Notes under the pieces: generated by a model
The model's input: the letters and a program-made list of their open reading frames with translations, nothing else
Told to the model about the DNA's origin: nothing
Database searches by the model: none
Position numbers and translations under genes: made by a program
Part shown: positions 37,104 through 46,977 of the stretch, one piece after another
Layout: every line of letters begins with the position of its first letter
Numbering within the stretch: position 1 is the first letter of the stretch
NCBI GenBank assembly: GCA_030828165.1
Contig: JAURDA010000006.1
Location: forward strand, 1 to 62,506
Direction of reading: 5' to 3'
Length of the DNA stretch: 62,506 nt
Origin: Candidatus Poseidonia sp.
GTDB lineage: Archaea; Thermoplasmatota; Poseidoniia; Poseidoniales; Poseidoniaceae

Positions 37104-40100
37104 ATGAAAACCGTCCGACCGTTGCTTACGGTAGCGCTGTGTGCAGTTTTGCTCTTCTCCACGCTTCCCGTCCATGCCGACGAAGCCACGGAGATCGGTC
37201 TTGAGATTCGGGTTCATTGGGTCGAATTGAGCGGAGACCCGGTGCATGCTTACTTGCTCACGTTTGCCGACAACGCTTCCTACCAGGTCAACCTGTCCAT
37301 GGAACACCTCCGAAACGATTCGTTGCTTCCTGCTTCCTACGTGCTGGAATGGGGGAGTGAGGACGGTAGGCGGACCGCCCTTGCAACCTTCAACACCTCG
37401 TTGGCGTGGGGCGATCGCATCGTGTTGGACGCGCACATTACTTCTCGAGACGGCAGCCCGGTTGACGTCGCCCACAGCCGTGAGTTGACGGTTGGGGTTT
37501 GGAACCAACCGATGGACGACCACGAAGTGATGCTCACGAGTTCGTGGTCGCTTGAACAAGTCTACGACAACGGTTCGGGTCCGCAACGTTTTGCCTTGAG
37601 TTTTACCGGGCAGGGCTGGCAGGAACGCGTTGGCGAAGTCCTTTCTTCTTGGGAGCTGGGCAACGGCACGTTCCAAACCCTTGAGACCACGGGAGAGGGT
37701 GAAACGGACCTCGATTTGGTCCTCACGCAGGTTTGGAAGAACGAAACACTCGTTGCCGGCATCCTGACCCATCAGGTGTTCGATGCTCGCGGATTTGGGT
37801 CGCTTCAAACCACGGTCGTTGACGGGGAAATGGAAACGGTCGTCCAAGCCGATGTCGCTCAGGCCCTGCTCAACCGGTCGTTGGTCAACGGCGTCGTTGG
37901 TGAGCGCTTGGTGCTCGAAGCGACGGGCAGCCTGAACGTCACCGAAGACGGAGCGGAGAACAATTCGCTGAACATCGACGGCGAACTTGCCGTGTTCTTC
38001 TTTGAATACCACGACGTCAACGGTGAACGCTTGCTTCAACACACCGCTTTCGAGGCCATGGCCGATTTCGTGCTCATCGAAGACGGCACCCGCTTGGACG
38101 TCGACCTTGACGGTTTCATTTCGTTGGAGCGGTGGGAAAACGGCGTTCGCACCGAGCACGTGGAGGAACTCTACGGCGACGGCACCTTTGGGTTCGAGGG
38201 TGAAGACGAGAACGCTTCGGTGCAGGTAAACGGCACCATTCTCGACCTGCACACAAAGATCGAGAACGGGACCACGACCGTTGATGACCTTCACGTCGAC
38301 GGGGTGCTCACGGGCGATGTCCAAGGGTCATTTGGAGTCGTTCGAGGCATTGAGACCACGGGCATGCAAGCCAACGCCACGGGCGAATCCTTCCTCGTCA
38401 ACGTCATCTTCCAAGAATCGTGGTTCAACATCACCGGCGTGAACGGAGGGAATTTCTTCGATGGCGCAGGAATCGGGGCCACCCACAACCAGACGTGGGA
38501 CTACCAAGTTGTTCAATCCGATTGGGACAACCGAACGGTTCGCTTGGTGTGGCGAGAAACCGGTCCGGATGCGGACGAAGGCGAGACCTTCCCCGACCAC
38601 AGCCCGGTGGAACAAGCTCCAACGCCTCCGGTGTCCGAGGAAGGTCTTGGTGACGTGACGGTCGGCCGAGAAACCGGTTTGATGCCCATTCCCATGGCGA
38701 CCAACGACCGCTTGCTGCTCAACGACCAAGAAGGAATGTCGCTTTCTGTGCTCGCTGGGGAAACCACCACCGATGCACGAGACGGCCACAACCTGACGGT
38801 GATTGCGTGGACGGGGACGTACGGAGGTTCGGGCGAATCGGGGACGGCCTCGGGAGCCGTGGTCTCCGTGGGCCCCTTGTCGGGCTTGCTCTCCAATGTG
38901 GAGCGAAACCTGAGTCTTCCCTTTGGTGAAAGCGGTGAAAACATTGCCGTTCGGGAAACACAACACCTCGACCGGGTTCTGTCGCCCGAAATTGTCAGTG
39001 AAGACCAAAACAACCCGCCGGCGGTCGGTGCAATCGGCCTTCGCGAAGGTTTGGTGGTTGGCGAAGGTGGCAGTTTTGCTCATCTTGAGGCGAGTGTTAC
39101 CGATTCGGAATGGAACGTGGTGGAGGTCACCGCAGATGCCAGCAGCGTCGGTTTGGGCATACTTCAACTCAACGACCGCGGCCTTGACGGTGATCAGAGC
39201 ATTGGCGACGATGTCTACACTTCCACGCTGCATGTAACCGGCCTTGAAGTCGGCGAATACTCGGTCAACATCACGGCCACCGACAGTTTTGGTTCGGTGA
39301 GCACCAAGCAGGGGTCCATCACGGTCGTCAACCAAGCCCCTCGTCTGTTGTCGGTTGAATTTGCTCCTTCATCCCTCGAACGGGGGCAATCTACGGTGGT
39401 GAACGCCCGTGCTTACGACGGTCACGGCGTTTCAAAGGTTCAATTGGACCTTCGTCCGTACGAAGGCACCTTGGTTGACCTGACGGCCACCGACGGTGTG
39501 TGGACGGCCATGGTGCCGCTCCCGCTTGGCTTTTCGCCGGGGGTTCAGACCGTCACGATGGTGGTCGAGGACGGTTTGGGAGCCAGCGAACGTTACCAAC
39601 GTTTTACCCAAGGCGAAATCGGCGATGCTGTCAAAGGCCCTCATTACGTCGACGTGGCCTTCGAAAACCCCATCGAAATCGAGGTGCTGAACGACCGGCC
39701 CGTGATGGAGGCGTTGGCCCTGACGGTTGAGAAAAAGCCAGAGGAATCCGCTGTCTTTACCGTCGTCGTTACGGATCGCGATGGCATTGAACGCGTTCAA
39801 ATCGACCTTGGGGTCTATGCGCCCATCGGCCAAAGCTCGTGGTCAGCGATGCACGACGACGGTCGTTCCGGTGGTGATTTGACGGCCGGAGACGGCGTGT
39901 ATTCTGTGCTGCTCTCCATTCGCGACGGGACGCCGCTCGGCACACATGAAGTCAGCGTCAGAAGTTTTGATGCGTACGGAGAAATGAACACCACATCGGT
40001 CGCCATACAATTGGTGGACGCAAGCGGCCCAAGCGAAGAGGGACCCGCATCAACCACCGTTTTGGTGACCGTCCTTGGCGGCCTGCTTGTGTTGGGGGCG

Positions 40101-40178
40101 CTCCTTGTTCTCGGTTTGATGAACCGGCGACAAGGTGGGCAAGACGGTGAGTCGGTTGATCGCTTTGGGACGCAGTGA
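37104..40178 (+). CDS. Large exported surface protein with Ig-like repeats
   Basis: A 1,024-residue protein with a signal peptide (MKTVRPLLTVALCAVLLFST) and a C-terminal membrane span ('TTVLVTVLGGLLVLGALLVLG') followed by a short charged tail. The 950-residue external part is beta-rich, acidic and full of Asn-x-Ser/Thr sites for glycosylation. In the second half, two modules carry the same motif, 'LDGDQSIGDDVYTSTLHV' and 'GGDLTAGDGVYSVLLSI', each ahead of a 'GxYxVxIxAxDSFGxxS' strand, as in Ig-like/cadherin-like repeats of surface proteins. No enzyme motif is visible. Likely a cell-surface or envelope protein; neighbours do not suggest a specific role. Confidence 0.8.
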   Translation: MKTVRPLLTVALCAVLLFSTLPVHADEATEIGLEIRVHWVELSGDPVHAYLLTFADNASYQVNLSMEHLRNDSLLPASYVLEWGSEDGRRTALATFNTSLAWGDRIVLDAHITSRDGSPVDVAHSRELTVGVWNQPMDDHEVMLTSSWSLEQVYDNGSGPQRFALSFTGQGWQERVGEVLSSWELGNGTFQTLETTGEGETDLDLVLTQVWKNETLVAGILTHQVFDARGFGSLQTTVVDGEMETVVQADVAQALLNRSLVNGVVGERLVLEATGSLNVTEDGAENNSLNIDGELAVFFFEYHDVNGERLLQHTAFEAMADFVLIEDGTRLDVDLDGFISLERWENGVRTEHVEELYGDGTFGFEGEDENASVQVNGTILDLHTKIENGTTTVDDLHVDGVLTGDVQGSFGVVRGIETTGMQANATGESFLVNVIFQESWFNITGVNGGNFFDGAGIGATHNQTWDYQVVQSDWDNRTVRLVWRETGPDADEGETFPDHSPVEQAPTPPVSEEGLGDVTVGRETGLMPIPMATNDRLLLNDQEGMSLSVLAGETTTDARDGHNLTVIAWTGTYGGSGESGTASGAVVSVGPLSGLLSNVERNLSLPFGESGENIAVRETQHLDRVLSPEIVSEDQNNPPAVGAIGLREGLVVGEGGSFAHLEASVTDSEWNVVEVTADASSVGLGILQLNDRGLDGDQSIGDDVYTSTLHVTGLEVGEYSVNITATDSFGSVSTKQGSITVVNQAPRLLSVEFAPSSLERGQSTVVNARAYDGHGVSKVQLDLRPYEGTLVDLTATDGVWTAMVPLPLGFSPGVQTVTMVVEDGLGASERYQRFTQGEIGDAVKGPHYVDVAFENPIEIEVLNDRPVMEALALTVEKKPEESAVFTVVVTDRDGIERVQIDLGVYAPIGQSSWSAMHDDGRSGGDLTAGDGVYSVLLSIRDGTPLGTHEVSVRSFDAYGEMNTTSVAIQLVDASGPSEEGPASTTVLVTVLGGLLVLGALLVLGLMNRRQGGQDGESVDRFGTQ

Positions 40179-41548: not shown

Positions 41549-42562
41549 ATGGCGGATTCCCCCGTGACCATCAACTCCCCCGGCGGCCAGTCGGCACCGG
41601 CCAATTCCGAACCTTCGCCCCAAGAGCAGAAGCAAATGGAGCAGGCGTACGCTCAAATGAAACGGAAAATGGCGATGGAGGAAATCGGTCGGAAAATCAA
41701 GCACAAGATCATGGTGCTTTCCGGCAAAGGCGGCGTGGGGAAGTCCACCGTTTCCACCGGGTTAGCGCTCTCCTTGGCCCAACAAGGCCATCGCGTTGGT
41801 ATTCTCGACATTGACATCACCGGCCCCAACGTCCCCAAGATGATGGGTCTTGACGGGCGGCGCCTCCACGTTGAGAACAAACGCATTCATCCTGCAGAAG
41901 GCCACTTGGGCGTCAAGGTGATCAGCATGGCCTTCCTCCTGGAGGACGAAGACACACCCGTGGTCTGGCGAGGCCCGATTAAACTCGGCGCCATTCAACA
42001 ATTCATTGGCGACGTCGAGTGGGGTGAACTTGACTACCTGATCATCGATTTCCCCCCCGGCACGTCCGATGAACCGTTGACCGTGGCCCAATCCCTCCCC
42101 AACATCGACGGCATGGTCATCGTCACCACGCCCCAACAGGTCGCGTTGCTGGACAGCCGAAAATCGATCACGTTTTCCGAATCCCTGAAGATTCCCGTGC
42201 TCGGCGTGGTGGAGAACATGAGCGGTTTCACCGTCAACGGCACCGCCGCTCCCGGCACAAGCCTCAACATCGCTGCTCCCGGTGGAAAAACCCTCACGGC
42301 CACGGCGGACGATGATGGCCGCTTTTCCGTGACGCTTGACATCTTCAAGCAAGGCGGGGGCCAAGCGACGGCAGACGAATTTGGTGTCCCGTTTTTGGGG
42401 GCCCTGCCCTTTGACCCGGGTTTCGTTCGTGGCGGTGACGACGGTGTCCACCGCATCGTCTCCGAACCCGACGGGCCCTCCGCCCACGCCTTTGCCAACG
42501 TCGTTGAGGCGATTCAAGCCCAACTTTCCGACGGCACCGACAGCGGCCTGGAAATCGTGTGA
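41549..42562 (+). CDS. Mrp/NBP35-family P-loop ATPase lacking all cysteines
   Basis: A 337-residue ParA/MinD-related ATPase of the Mrp (ApbC) family, normally a carrier that assembles and hands over 4Fe-4S clusters. Present: deviant Walker A 'VLSGKGGVGKSTVSTGLA', 'ILDIDITGPNVPKMMGL', 'IIDFPPGTSDEPLT' and 'VIVTTPQQVALLD'. After 'GVVENMSG' the family should carry the C-x-x-C pair that bridges the cluster between two subunits. Here it is replaced by a 38-residue beta-like insertion (about residues 227-264, 'GTAAPGTSLNIAAPGGKT...') before normal wording resumes at 'DIFKQGGGQATADEFGVP'. The whole protein contains no Cys. The DUF971 gene follows by 9 bases. The ATG at 41549 is preferred over a TTG at 41543. 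Confidence 0.9.
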   Translation: MADSPVTINSPGGQSAPANSEPSPQEQKQMEQAYAQMKRKMAMEEIGRKIKHKIMVLSGKGGVGKSTVSTGLALSLAQQGHRVGILDIDITGPNVPKMMGLDGRRLHVENKRIHPAEGHLGVKVISMAFLLEDEDTPVVWRGPIKLGAIQQFIGDVEWGELDYLIIDFPPGTSDEPLTVAQSLPNIDGMVIVTTPQQVALLDSRKSITFSESLKIPVLGVVENMSGFTVNGTAAPGTSLNIAAPGGKTLTATADDDGRFSVTLDIFKQGGGQATADEFGVPFLGALPFDPGFVRGGDDGVHRIVSEPDGPSAHAFANVVEAIQAQLSDGTDSGLEIV

Positions 42563-42571
42563 GGTGGACCG

Positions 42572-42925
42572 ATGAGCAAGCCGCTTCCCACGCTGAAGAA
42601 ACTTGAGCGCCGCCCCAACGACATGGTGCTGACCTACGACGACGACACCACGTTCACGGTGAGTTACGACGATGTGCGGCACGCGTGCCCGTGTGCAAAA
42701 TGTGCACCAATGCGGAACGAAGACGACACCAGCCGGACGCTCCGAAGGCAGGTTGAGGCGCTTCCTGCCGAGAAACCGACCGTCAAAACGGTCGGAAAGT
42801 ACGCTCTTTCCTTTGAGTGGCAGCAAGGGTGTTCAAGCGGAATTTACCGCTTCGAGCGGATTTACGACCTCGCCAACCGACGCGACCCCGACCGAGGTCG
42901 GCCCTACGTCCACGGTGCATGGTGA
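42572..42925 (+). CDS. DUF971 domain protein
   Basis: A 117-residue protein consisting of one DUF971 (gamma-butyrobetaine hydroxylase N-terminal-like) domain: 'DMVLTYDDDTTFTVSYDDVRHACPCAKC', then 'VGKYALSFEWQQGCSSGIYRFERIYDL'. The CPCAKC cluster could bind metal or an Fe-S cluster. In plant HCF101 proteins a DUF971 domain is fused behind an Mrp domain, and here the two are adjacent genes, supporting a common complex. Ten bases separate it from the Mrp-type gene; GGTGG precedes the ATG. Confidence 0.88.
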   Translation: MSKPLPTLKKLERRPNDMVLTYDDDTTFTVSYDDVRHACPCAKCAPMRNEDDTSRTLRRQVEALPAEKPTVKTVGKYALSFEWQQGCSSGIYRFERIYDLANRRDPDRGRPYVHGAW

Positions 42926-42999: not shown

Positions 43000-45060
43000 A
43001 TGCAGAGCGTCTATTTGACATGGATGATCAGCGCCCTCGCCTTGGGGGTTCTGCTTCTTCCCGTGTTCAAACCACCGTGGGCAAAGTTATCGCTCCCCCC
43101 CTTTGTTGATTTCTTTCGACGGTATTGGGTTCACATTCTGATCGTTTTCACCATCTACAACCTCAAGGACGGCTTGGACCAACTTGATCGGGTCTTGATG
43201 GCGAGCACCGGACTCGACATGACCCCTTACATTTGGGCGATTGAGGGCAACCTCGTGTTGTGGGTTCAACAAACGTTTGAAGCGGCTTGGCTGACCACGG
43301 CGCTCACGCATTTTTACGTCGCCGGCTTCATGTTCATCTGTTATGTTTCCGTGTTCTATTTCGCCTACTTTGACGACCGTTGGCTCGCCGACCGGGTCAC
43401 CCTCTCCATCGCTTGGGTGTACATCCTCGCCGTGCCGTTTTACTTGTTTTTCAACGTCAGGGTGACCGGCGATACCATTCCTGAAATGCAAACCTTGGCC
43501 TATACCCTGACGCCGGAAATTGCCGACTGGTTTCGTCGAATCGACCCGTTCACCAACGGGATGCCCTCGCTTCACATCGGCATTCCCTTCGCTGTTTGGC
43601 TGTGCTTGACCCGATTTGATGACGACCGACGTTGGAACCGCTACCGGCACACCGTGTTTGCCTACACCGCTCTCACGGCCTTTACCATCATCTACCTCGG
43701 CATTCACTGGTTCATGGACATCATCGGGGGCATGCTCGTCGCAGGTGCTGCGGTATCGATGGCCGACCGGACCTCGAACACCTGGTGGAAGTTCTTTGAT
43801 GAGCGTACGATGAACGTCCGCATTGTCACGGTGCTCACGCGGCCCAAAAAGGCGTGGACTTGGGTGAAAAGCAGCTCGCACAGGATGTACTTGCAGTACC
43901 GCTCGCCAACCAGCACCGAGACCGGTCGCATGGCGCTTGCCATTCTCATCGTGGTCGCCGCCGTCATCACGTGGGACTTGACCAACCGCTCTCTCCCCGC
44001 AGGAGGGGTCGAGGCGCCCGAGGCCGCCGCCGCTATCGACGGCTGGATGGTCACGCTGGACAACCAAACCGAAGGAGCGGCGTTGTTGTTGCACAACCTC
44101 TCCACGAGTACGACCGAGCCTGCTCGGTTCAACGTTCCCGGCTTGACGCTGAACGCTTCGTACGCCGTGTTGAACGACCGTTTGGTGGTGAGCAATCCAA
44201 ACATCATGCACGTCTTTGACATGGAGCAGCCGACAGCGCCCATCGCTTCGTTCTCAACCGGTGACGTGAACGATGTCGCCCTCTGTGGACTCCCCCAATC
44301 CATGGTCGTGGTGTATTCGGAGAGCGGGGCCATCGTGATGCAATCGCTTGATGGGCAACGCCTTGAGGGCGGACACACCGAGGTGAGCAACGTCGCTCGT
44401 TTGGTGTGCAGCGGCTCAGAAATCGCCTATGTTACCGAAACGGCACCTCTTCAGGTTAACGTGCTCCAAATCGGTGTAACCGGTCAGGTGAGTTACGCCA
44501 TCAACGCCACCGCACCCGTCGAAGAGGACGAGGTTCTCGCGGCTTGGGGCACGCCGGTGGACATGGAGAACGCCACGATCGACACGCTTGCCTTCGATCG
44601 GTCGTACTTGGCCGTGACCGTCAACGTCAGCGCTACCGACCGTTTGGTGCTCGTCAATCGGTCCTCGGCCGAGCAATGGTTGGCGAGCAACCCGAAGTAC
44701 GAGGTCTCGGACCCCTCCATGGGACACGGCATTTTGGCTTGGTCGGTCCGCGACCACCTCAATCCAACCTCGCCACAAAGCAAGTACCTTGACCGTGAAA
44801 TCTACTTCCTTGATTTGGTCGAGAACACGACCCACGTGCTGACGTCCGACACCAACGACCAATGGGGTCCGCAGGTGCTGGAAAATCATCTGGTATACTT
44901 TCAACTTGAAGACGAGGCGGTAACCGTCGAAATCCACGCTTGGGAGCCGGAATTGCGAGCGTACTCCAGCTTCGTTTTGCAGGCCGGCGTCTTGCTGGCC
45001 TTCGTGGTGGTTGCATGGCACATGTGGCAGCGACAAAGCGAACGCCGTCAAGCGAATTAG
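43000..45060 (+). CDS. PAP2-superfamily membrane phosphatase fused to a beta-propeller-like domain
   Basis: A 686-residue protein. The N-terminal 260 residues contain six membrane spans and the PAP2/IPT-type motifs 'GMPSLHIGIPFAVWL' and 'GIHWFMDIIGGMLVAG' (catalytic His and Asp), as in Aur1-like inositol-phosphotransferase domains. It may act on polyprenyl or inositol phospholipids. A further span (about 308-325) leads into an external region of 330 residues with repeating four-strand patterns ('ASYAVLNDRLVVSNPNIMHVFD', 'GSEIAYVTETAPLQVNVLQIG'), like a beta-propeller, and a final membrane span anchors the end. GAGGGTGA precedes the ATG at 43000 (GTG 42994 is possible). It ends convergently with bud32, overlapping by 4 bases. 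Confidence 0.78.
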   Translation: MQSVYLTWMISALALGVLLLPVFKPPWAKLSLPPFVDFFRRYWVHILIVFTIYNLKDGLDQLDRVLMASTGLDMTPYIWAIEGNLVLWVQQTFEAAWLTTALTHFYVAGFMFICYVSVFYFAYFDDRWLADRVTLSIAWVYILAVPFYLFFNVRVTGDTIPEMQTLAYTLTPEIADWFRRIDPFTNGMPSLHIGIPFAVWLCLTRFDDDRRWNRYRHTVFAYTALTAFTIIYLGIHWFMDIIGGMLVAGAAVSMADRTSNTWWKFFDERTMNVRIVTVLTRPKKAWTWVKSSSHRMYLQYRSPTSTETGRMALAILIVVAAVITWDLTNRSLPAGGVEAPEAAAAIDGWMVTLDNQTEGAALLLHNLSTSTTEPARFNVPGLTLNASYAVLNDRLVVSNPNIMHVFDMEQPTAPIASFSTGDVNDVALCGLPQSMVVVYSESGAIVMQSLDGQRLEGGHTEVSNVARLVCSGSEIAYVTETAPLQVNVLQIGVTGQVSYAINATAPVEEDEVLAAWGTPVDMENATIDTLAFDRSYLAVTVNVSATDRLVLVNRSSAEQWLASNPKYEVSDPSMGHGILAWSVRDHLNPTSPQSKYLDREIYFLDLVENTTHVLTSDTNDQWGPQVLENHLVYFQLEDEAVTVEIHAWEPELRAYSSFVLQAGVLLAFVVVAWHMWQRQSERRQAN

Positions 45061-45737
45061 CCGTGGTATCGAACGCGGGATCGTACGTCCTCAAGACGCG
45101 CATGAACTTCACTTGCGCTGGGAACGGCGCCGCCTTGCAGGACCAGAGCGGGGCCGAGTTCACGTTCTTCAGCGAGGTAGCCCTCAATCACCCATTCCAT
45201 GGCGCTGGGCCAATGAGGGTGGGATGCGCCGAGGATTTCGTCGAGAACATGCAGGTCGATGCCGAATTTTTCAACATCGTACTCGATGGAGGCGAGTCCG
45301 AAATCGATGAGGTGGACCTCGTTCCCGTCGATGAGGATGTTGTTGCTCGACAGGTCTCCATGGGTCATGGCTTCACGGTGAAGGCGTCGCACGCTTCCAC
45401 CAACCCGATGGAGCGTTGCTCGAACATCACTTTCTTCCGTTCCTTCGGCGTTGAGGACTTCGATGAGCGGGGTACCTTCCAAGTGCTGGACGATGAGTTG
45501 CCCTCCCTCGTAATCCAAATCCCACACCGCCGGTACGGAAAGGCCGGCTTTCCGAGAACGAATCAACAAACGTGCTTCGCTCACCATGCGACGAACGCCA
45601 AGACGGTGATCGAGGTCGGGATGACGCCAAGACCGGGGCCGTCGCTGTTTACGTACAGCGGTTTGACCGAACCAAATCCCCTTCCAAACCTCCGCCTCGG
45701 CCCCCAGGTGAAGGCGCTCGGTGGGCTTGAAGACCAT
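45057..45737 (-). CDS. bud32: Bud32-type atypical protein kinase (KEOPS subunit)
   Basis: A 226-residue small kinase. Motifs: 'LGAEAEVWKGIWFGQTAVRKQR' (nucleotide loop and Lys), 'HPDLDHRLGVRRMVSEARLL' (the characteristic Bud32 basic helix and Glu), 'THGDLSSNNILID' (catalytic Asp and Asn) and 'HLIDFGLASIEYDVEKFGIDLHVL' (DFG). In KEOPS it works as an ATPase with Kae1 to make t6A on tRNAs reading ANN codons. Kae1 is often fused or adjacent in archaea, but is not here. Start at 45737 (MVFKPTERL) is preferred; 45779 would add 14 residues. Confidence 0.9.
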   Translation of the reverse strand: MVFKPTERLHLGAEAEVWKGIWFGQTAVRKQRRPRSWRHPDLDHRLGVRRMVSEARLLIRSRKAGLSVPAVWDLDYEGGQLIVQHLEGTPLIEVLNAEGTEESDVRATLHRVGGSVRRLHREAMTHGDLSSNNILIDGNEVHLIDFGLASIEYDVEKFGIDLHVLDEILGASHPHWPSAMEWVIEGYLAEERELGPALVLQGGAVPSASEVHARLEDVRSRVRYHG

Positions 45738-45822
45738 GGTACGACGCAGGCTTGGGACTTTTTGAAACTTCAGCCCCATCCGTTCATTGAAAAAGGGTAG
45801 GCGCGTGGGTATGTTGAGTCCC

Positions 45823-46977
45823 ATGAGCATTTCCCTCCCCATGTGCTCGGTCAACTTCATGGACACCTCGCTCTCGGTCGAAGAGCAGGCGATTGCGGAC
45901 CGAATCGACGAACTGAAAGCTCAGTTGGGCGATGATTTGCTCATCCTCGGGCATCATTACCAGCGGGACAGCATTGTCATGCATGCCGATTTCCTCGGCG
46001 ACTCCTTCATGCTCAGCCAAAAAGCCGCTGAATCCTCAGCAAAACACATCGTGTTTTGCGGCGTTCACTTCATGGCGGAATCCGCCGATATTCTGACTTC
46101 GGACGAGCAGTCCGTGATGCTTCCCAACCTCCGTGCGGGTTGCTCGATGGCGGACATGGCGACGCTTGTTGAGGTTGAAGCTGCATGGGACGCCATCCTC
46201 GCCGAGTCCGGCCTTGCCGACCCCATCTCCAGAACCGATGCCGATTTGCCCGCTGAGGAGGGCCGTTCCTACCTCGTGCCCGTGACGTACATGAATTCAA
46301 GCGCCGACCTCAAGGATTTCGTGGGTCGCCACGGAGGGGTGGTTTGCACCTCTTCAAACGCAGAAGGCGTGCTCAACTGGGCGTTTGAGCGAGCGGGTCC
46401 AAAGGGGGCTGTGCTGTTCTTCCCTGACCAACACCTTGGGAGAAACACCGGTCATGCCATGGGGGTCCCGGAAACGGCGATGCCGACGTGGACCCCAGGA
46501 ATCGGTGCAAGTACGCCGCTCAATGGGGCACGGATCGTTCTCTGGCACGGATTTTGCTCCGTACACAAGCGGTTCACGCCGGACCAAATCGACGTTTTCC
46601 GCGCTGAACATCCCGACGGCTTGGTCGTGGTTCACCCCGAATGTCCCAAAGCCACCGTCGACCTTGCTGACGCGTACGGTTCAACCAATTTCATTCGCAA
46701 GTACGTGCAGGAGTTGCCCGCTGGGGCTTCGGTCGCGATTGGCACGGAGATCAACATGGTGGCTCGACTTGCCCAAGAACACCCTGACAAGCACATCGAG
46801 TGTTTGGACGAGGAAATTTGTCCGTGTTCAACGATGTACATGATTCACCCCGCTTACCTGATGGACGTGCTCGAGCGCTTGGTCGACGGCGAAATCCCCA
46901 ACCAGATTGTTGTGCCCAAAGAAGTTCAGGACGGCTCGCTCATGGCGCTGAACCGCATGTTGGCCATCAAGGCGTGA
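45823..46977 (+). CDS. nadA: Quinolinate synthase
   Basis: A 384-residue NadA, the 4Fe-4S enzyme condensing iminoaspartate with dihydroxyacetone phosphate to quinolinate in NAD synthesis. Motifs: 'LGHHYQRDSIVMHADFLGDS', the first cluster Cys in 'NLRAGCSMADM', 'WHGFCSVHKRF' (second Cys), 'PECPKATVDLAD', and 'EICPCSTMYM' (third Cys). The length is slightly above average because of the N-terminus; starts at 45811, 45823, 45841 or 45859 are possible. The gene runs divergently from bud32, and its end overlaps the convergent fluoride channel gene by 11 bases. Confidence 0.95.
   Translation: MSISLPMCSVNFMDTSLSVEEQAIADRIDELKAQLGDDLLILGHHYQRDSIVMHADFLGDSFMLSQKAAESSAKHIVFCGVHFMAESADILTSDEQSVMLPNLRAGCSMADMATLVEVEAAWDAILAESGLADPISRTDADLPAEEGRSYLVPVTYMNSSADLKDFVGRHGGVVCTSSNAEGVLNWAFERAGPKGAVLFFPDQHLGRNTGHAMGVPETAMPTWTPGIGASTPLNGARIVLWHGFCSVHKRFTPDQIDVFRAEHPDGLVVVHPECPKATVDLADAYGSTNFIRKYVQELPAGASVAIGTEINMVARLAQEHPDKHIECLDEEICPCSTMYMIHPAYLMDVLERLVDGEIPNQIVVPKEVQDGSLMALNRMLAIKA

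Follow-up and report, generated by a model that had tools for sequence, protein, structure and literature searches.

The Mrp-type ATPase of Poseidoniales, an order of surface-ocean archaea, is by its sequence and those of its relatives a real, order-wide and selected variant of a known family, and relocation of its metal site to a DUF971 protein is plausible. The gene pair lies in a stretch of 62,506 nucleotides of Candidatus Poseidonia sp., referred to as the window. For comparison, families are abbreviated as f1 (Poseidoniaceae), f2 (the second Poseidoniales family), f3 (MGIII) and f31 (outside the class Poseidoniia). Among the matches listed from open PMC papers, none had a title dealing with the Mrp of Poseidoniales or with Mrp and DUF971 paired in an archaeon.

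An Mrp ATPase without cluster-binding cysteines

The following features of the ATPase gene were assigned:

41549..42562, + strand: Mrp/NBP35-family P-loop ATPase gene, 337 aa, zero Cys (PF10609, E 2.2e-90)
41720..41749, + strand: deviant Walker A motif SGKGGVGKST, residues 58-67 (Mrp alignment)
42047..42076, + strand: Switch II/Walker B region DFPPGTSDEP, residues 167-176 (no variation at the key positions in 43 aligned Mrps)
42230..42337, + strand: 36-residue insertion (228-263) replacing the CPxC loop, with four predicted beta strands, a candidate truncated Big_6-like module (Pfam, AlphaFold2, Foldseek, relatives)
42338..42559, + strand: C-terminal ATPase part, from DIFKQGGG onward, resuming past the insertion (sequence, Mrp alignment)

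The protein has the PF10609 domain and the deviant Walker A (GKGGhGK[ST]) of the Mrp/NBP35 family and lacks its CxxC. In this widespread family of Fe-S carriers the pair is described as conserved, essential in vivo and bridging a [4Fe-4S] cluster between monomers, as far as the available part of the source extends (PMC6345978). The first-pass annotation had reported an ATPase with intact motifs and no cysteine, and on both points it was right: Walker A, D87/D89 and DFPPGTSDEP are all present, and no Cys occurs over the 337 residues. In an alignment of 43 Mrps the key residues of Walker A, A' and switch II are invariant. Complete absence of cysteine holds for the window protein but is not a conserved trait, being found in 79 of 96 distinct Mrps of f1, five of 12 of f2 and one of two of f31; loss of the CxxC, unlike zero Cys, is conserved.

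The nearest named relatives belong to Poseidonia sp. and Candidatus Poseidoniaceae assemblies (best 80 of 262 matches). In a structure search the solved folds nearest to the predicted model were those of ApbC, Cfd1, AF2382 and ATPase-type HypB, and by sequence Cfd1 (190 bits) and AF2382 (188 bits) outscored the HypB of Thermococcus kodakarensis (115 bits). The Poseidoniales protein shares the P-loop, the deviant Walker A, PF10609 and the fold with the Mrp/NBP35 carriers (ApbC, Cfd1, archaeal ApbC/Nbp35), but differs from them in the missing CxxC, the Big_6-like insertion at that place and the mostly zero cysteine content.

A beta-rich insertion at the former cluster site

The insertion sits between NMSGF (223-227) and DIFKQGGG (from 264), where relatives have CPHCGKEI or similar. 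A replacement of the motif had been proposed before and stands, with its size corrected from 38 residues (227-264) to 36 (228-263). The suggestion that it forms a small beta domain agrees with AlphaFold2 (43 sequences, mean pLDDT 87, pTM 0.83), which predicted strands at 227-232, 238-242, 248-252 and 258-263, with a pLDDT of 84-96 over the block. The same four strands were predicted for the fragment alone (52 sequences, mean pLDDT 80.5).

Residues 224-271 matched Pfam Big_6 with an E-value of 5.8e-5 and 23.7 bits, under the curated cut-off of 27.6; the match covers positions 12-60 of the 83 in the profile, with four strands, and is short of a full domain. A Ca2+-stabilized adhesin repeat of NCBIfam matched residues 215-264 (E 2.1e-6), likewise under its cut-off. 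Among the 43 A1 members, Big_6 was matched at E<=0.1 in 21 and the insertion was present in 27, the overlap of both sets being unspecified. With the fragment as Foldseek query, the adhesin domain Bap-C ranked top and SiiE lower, with an rmsd of 1.1-1.5 over 37 columns; none of these matches reached E < 0.1. By similarity the insertion is thus probably a truncated Ig-like module, its family membership being unproven.

Counted from NMSG to DIF, the length is 37 residues in 95 of 96 distinct Mrps of f1 and in all 12 of f2, with a conserved G/P/D pattern. Two proteins have a longer insertion of 44 residues, the 96th of f1 (L125) and one of f2 (L120, a row dropped for an X), which is likewise without CxxC. 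The relatives that were read, of either Poseidoniales family, have the insertion at nearly fixed length, and an assembly error as its source is thereby excluded. It is under purifying selection and yet more variable than the core, with a dN/dS of 0.068 against 0.015 (42 close pairs) and a pN of 0.314 against 0.074 (400 random pairs). Copying of the insertion from another gene was considered and rejected: a search of 11 genomes with an insertion profile recovered the Mrp locus in 10 and, besides Mrp, a single weak match (E 0.05, in a 3124-aa frame). Base composition was uninformative as to a foreign origin (GC 0.649 for the insertion and 0.594 for the core; GC3 0.703 and 0.749).

Distribution of the CxxC loss

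An Mrp match at E <= 0.001 was obtained in 93 of 97 relatives, with only weak P-loop matches in G038, G041 and G062. The CxxC was found in none of the distinct Mrps of f1 (0/96), f2 (0/12) and f31 (0/2), against 39 of 39 for Mrp proper elsewhere in the phylum. A simpler CxxC expression missed two of these 39, both misses being explained, and more distant CxxC-less relatives were left out of the count. Loss of the CxxC together with the insertion is order-wide in Poseidoniales.

Among the matches listed from 292 phylum genomes, those outside Poseidoniales stop near residue 228, except in f31. In the two f31 genomes (G150, G219) the insertion is present, at 36 residues, and the CxxC is absent; their Mrps lie at L178:4689-5663 and L179:4144-5130, outside the class Poseidoniia. 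The best tree places f31 apart from Poseidoniales, which would give two independent gains, but a single origin of the insertion was not rejected by the AU test (p 0.20), and two gains were not adopted. CxxC-less Mrp relatives also occur in other families of the phylum, and the five that were read (L314-L318) have no insertion. The one compared (the same protein as L315) is clearly of HypB type, scoring 251 bits with T. kodakarensis HypB and 126 with ApbC. In some phylum genomes (e.g. G170, G187) such a CxxC-less relative is the only type matched.

A second, normal Mrp in the same genomes, which the first-pass annotation had named as grounds for giving up its idea, was looked for and not found. 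The genome of the window gave one match only, and secondary matches in the 97 relatives extend over at most 78 residues, apart from the second piece of a broken gene in G039. With the family model PF10609, secondary matches reach 41 bits, some above the cut-off, among the matches listed; the seven secondary P-loop matches that were read are ParA-type (six) and ArsA-type (one). In the one-contig genome G039 (C1:1777267-1778270) the Mrp frame is stopped near residue 300-313 and the rest lies in another frame, which is either a sequencing error or real.

The DUF971 partner

The second gene of the pair has the following features:

42572..42925, + strand: DUF971 (GBBH-like_N) gene, 117 aa (PF06155, E 7.6e-15)
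42686..42703, + strand: CPCAKC of DUF971, with C39, C41 and C44 (alignment)
42830..42832, + strand: fourth cysteine of DUF971, C87 (a site occupied by His in those bacterial relatives that were read)

Its match to PF06155 scores 55.9 bits, above the cut-off of 22.8. The gene directly follows the Mrp gene as described earlier, at nine bases past the stop codon and not ten. In f1, DUF971 lies on the same strand and downstream of Mrp in all 78 loci measured out of 80. The spacing is 8-23 bases at 74 of them and 171 bases at one, and at the other three a start was not located. PF06155 was detected in 94 of the 97 relatives. Of 292 phylum genomes, 81 have it (38 of f1, 39 of f2 and four of f3), and none of these lies outside the class Poseidoniia. 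It is missing from four f1 and two f3 genomes; one of these, G320, has a contig that breaks off where the domain begins. The f1 genomes G034, G038 and G041, which have no full Mrp, lack DUF971 too, as expected if one assembly gap covers both genes.

In the second family the two genes are unlinked. No DUF971 was found within about 2 kb of Mrp at any of 14 f2 loci; the same query found the gene at its own loci in 18 of 18. The f2 Mrp retains other neighbours, a LMW phosphatase at 12 and PAP2 at 13 of the 14 loci, and at the one locus annotated DUF971 is flanked by an MMPL transporter and Pus10. In the two f31 genomes no DUF971 was detected at E<=0.001, nor did a Poseidoniales profile detect one at E<=1, in a search without positive control. 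The adjacency of Mrp and DUF971 noted earlier holds in Poseidoniaceae, but it does not track loss of the CxxC: the genes are unlinked in f2, and DUF971 is not detectable in f31. As few independent events are involved, the co-occurrence of CxxC loss and DUF971 can be tested only without power.

Two other parts of the window were also recorded. Downstream of the pair are genes for a Bud32 kinase (45057-45866, - strand) and for the quinolinate synthase NadA (45787-46974, + strand), a 4Fe-4S enzyme; of the 80 named f1 loci, 69 have the former gene and 68 the latter. At 37104-40178 (+ strand) a 1024-aa protein is encoded that has, by eye, a secreted-like start, a terminal membrane segment and Ig-like repeats, and no Pfam match at E 0.001.

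A fourth cysteine in DUF971

The CPCAKC noted in the first reading of this gene was found again as C39, C41 and C44, and its CxCxxC pattern is invariant in the DUF971 of the pair. The fourth site of the distinct DUF971 proteins is Cys in 98 of 99 of f1 (the other being X) and 24 of 24 of f2, i.e. in all 122 that are readable. It is His in PDB entries 3luu, 2l6n and 2l6p and in eight of eight bacterial DUF971 proteins read from plasmids, a sample of 51 matched records of which nine were fetched and the unannotated L291 gave none. The exchange of His for Cys in Poseidoniales, as read from these sequences, is new in this analysis. An invariant fourth cysteine fits a metal binding that has moved.

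The GBBH-like_N domain of gamma-butyrobetaine hydroxylase shares PF06155 and the CxCxxC with the Poseidoniales protein, which differs from this zinc domain in having Cys instead of His at the fourth position. The CPC-x-x-C of BBOX1 chains aligns with the CxCxxC of DUF971. The zinc ligands of BBOX1 are C38, C40, C43 and H82, and on our reading of the printed residues its His would correspond to the fourth DUF971 site. By analogy with this CCCH zinc site, the CCCC site of Poseidoniales could bind zinc as well. The His is retained in DUF971 proteins without CxCxxC (L287, L289 and 2l6n), so it need not act only as a metal ligand. On rhizobial and Methylobacterium plasmids (L287, L288, L289) a lone DUF971 gene lies directly before an annotated fumarate reductase/succinate dehydrogenase flavoprotein gene; the CxCxxC is missing in two of these three.

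Fused relatives in MGIII and bacteria

In MGIII, the sister order in the same class, Mrp is part of one long frame at 11 loci (L198-L208), among the matches listed; one of these frames is truncated, and the other 10 continue into DUF971. In G099 and G232, the two genomes tested for it, the frame also contains DUF59. By its domain order the protein is an HCF101-type DUF59-Mrp-DUF971 fusion, new in this analysis. Genus g23 has CPEC in five of five and the DUF971 His in five of five. In genus g24 the CxxC is absent (0/6, NMAGFTPPGS), there is no insertion and the fourth DUF971 site is Ala in six of six; here the CxxC has also been lost, by another route, from a DUF971-fused Mrp. The MGIII Mrp stands far from that of Poseidoniales in the tree, and its branch of 1.45 suggests that a bacterial gene displaced the original one. 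That g24 lost its CxxC through a loss of SUF was considered and rejected, SufBD being present in four of six g24 and three of four g23 genomes.

A bacterial Mrp-DUF971 fusion was found on the Polaromonas plasmid pE5SP1 (L283), within a cluster of SufU, BolA, Grx4, NifU and LipA. Its location amid Fe-S assembly genes is new in this analysis. Two further bacterial fusions adjoin NifU-family genes and one adjoins a DUF6522 gene; all four retain the CxxC and the His.

HCF101 is described with the architecture DUF59-Mrp-DUF971, the function of its DUF971 being called elusive in the part of that paper available (PMC7980591). In the plant protein C128, C347 and C419 are reported to be required, with a C339x7C347 arrangement, and each monomer may carry one cluster, according to the available portion of PMC5890173. 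A conserved CxxC is, however, described in HCF101 and Ind1 (PMC7980591, same portion), and between these sources the state of the CxxC in HCF101 is unsettled. A parallel with HCF101 had been drawn from the window alone; it proved to be real, since MGIII, also of the class Poseidoniia, has the fusion and one of its genera lost the CxxC. As in HCF101, Mrp and DUF971 belong together in the Poseidoniaceae pair. Unlike HCF101, with three domains in one chain, the pair consists of two genes, unlinked in f2, and no DUF59 match was found in the window Mrp.

Interpretation of the pair

We tentatively favour, at rather less than even confidence, the reading of the pair as a split and altered HCF101-like carrier of metal or Fe-S clusters, of the Mrp type, with its metal site moved to DUF971. 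It is preferred because bacterial fusions lie in or beside Fe-S genes, SufB/SufD are present, the nearest folds are those named above and HypB-HypA offers a precedent. The sequences show that the Mrp subunit kept its ATPase and lost the two cluster-bridging cysteines, with a four-strand, bacterial-Ig-like piece filling their place. The metal or cluster would now sit on DUF971, and the Mrp dimer may act as an ATP-driven clamp that grips DUF971, or its targets, via the beta insertion. The clamp is modelled on ATPase-type HypB with the small zinc protein HypA, or on the domains that HCF101 has in one chain. In T. kodakarensis, complex formation between HypB and HypA, which is small and bears zinc, is regulated by nucleotide, according to the available part of PMC7055735. 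The HypB/HypA system likewise combines an Mrp/MinD ATPase without nickel site and a small partner, but the Poseidoniales partner is from a different family and the Mrp is nearer the Fe-S carriers by sequence. Evidence against a split carrier comes from f31, which has the insertion and the CxxC loss and yet no detected DUF971, from the separate DUF971 locus in f2, and from g24, which lost the CxxC and gained no fourth Cys. The possible zinc at the CCCC site, the His kept without CxCxxC and the conflicting sources on HCF101 also weigh against it. A fuller version is rather unlikely: the cluster site itself would have moved to the partner, the CCCH of DUF971 becoming a four-Cys cluster site, the two half-Ig inserts at the two-fold axis of the dimer would make a composite beta clamp for ATP-driven holding and release of a DUF971 cluster, and a similar CxxC loss would have occurred separately in the MGIII fusion and perhaps in plant HCF101.

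It is quite conceivable, if doubtful, that Mrp is instead a cluster-free ATPase in Fe-S maturation, an assembly chaperone or a factor onto which SUF, SufT or a carrier docks, with the insertion as a new docking surface and DUF971 as a zinc protein in its own right, adjacent in one family only. The presence of SufB/SufD in seven of eight Poseidoniales genomes tested (that of the window, 84% complete, has no SufBD) and of a SufT/DUF59 match in all eight agrees with this, as does a DUF971 gene that is unlinked in f2 and not detected in f31; harder to reconcile with it are the DUF971-Mrp fusions of MGIII and bacteria, the bacterial ones in or beside Fe-S genes, and the restriction of DUF971, over 292 phylum genomes, to the class with the altered Mrp. 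That the ATPase was recruited to insert another metal or cofactor, as ATPase-type HypB is for nickel, we consider improbable, having lowered this reading a little further because the HypB-type protein of the phylum scores 251 against 126 bits. In its favour, chains of ATPase-type HypB rank with the best matches by structure, HypB is an Mrp/MinD-family ATPase in which, in the available part of PMC7055735, no nickel site was found, and CxxC-less HypB-type relatives exist in the phylum; against this, Cfd1 and AF2382 outscore HypB, the five CxxC-less relatives read have no insertion, and a hypA-like match was absent among the neighbouring ORFs scanned. There is an equally slim chance that the protein just ceased to bind a cluster, with the insertion as a neutral spacer, and is drifting to a ParA/MinD-like or moonlighting role. 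The faster variation of the insertion (by pN) and the two longer examples point that way, but its near-fixed length, its G/P/D pattern and the purifying selection on it across two families argue otherwise, as do the invariant ATPase residues.

Poseidoniales offer a natural experiment on how an Mrp ATPase acts without its own cluster and on the role of DUF971, because a marine archaeal order keeps the ATPase, drops the CxxC and keeps a four-Cys DUF971. With two short, separate proteins, the question of Mrp and DUF971 becomes experimentally tractable.
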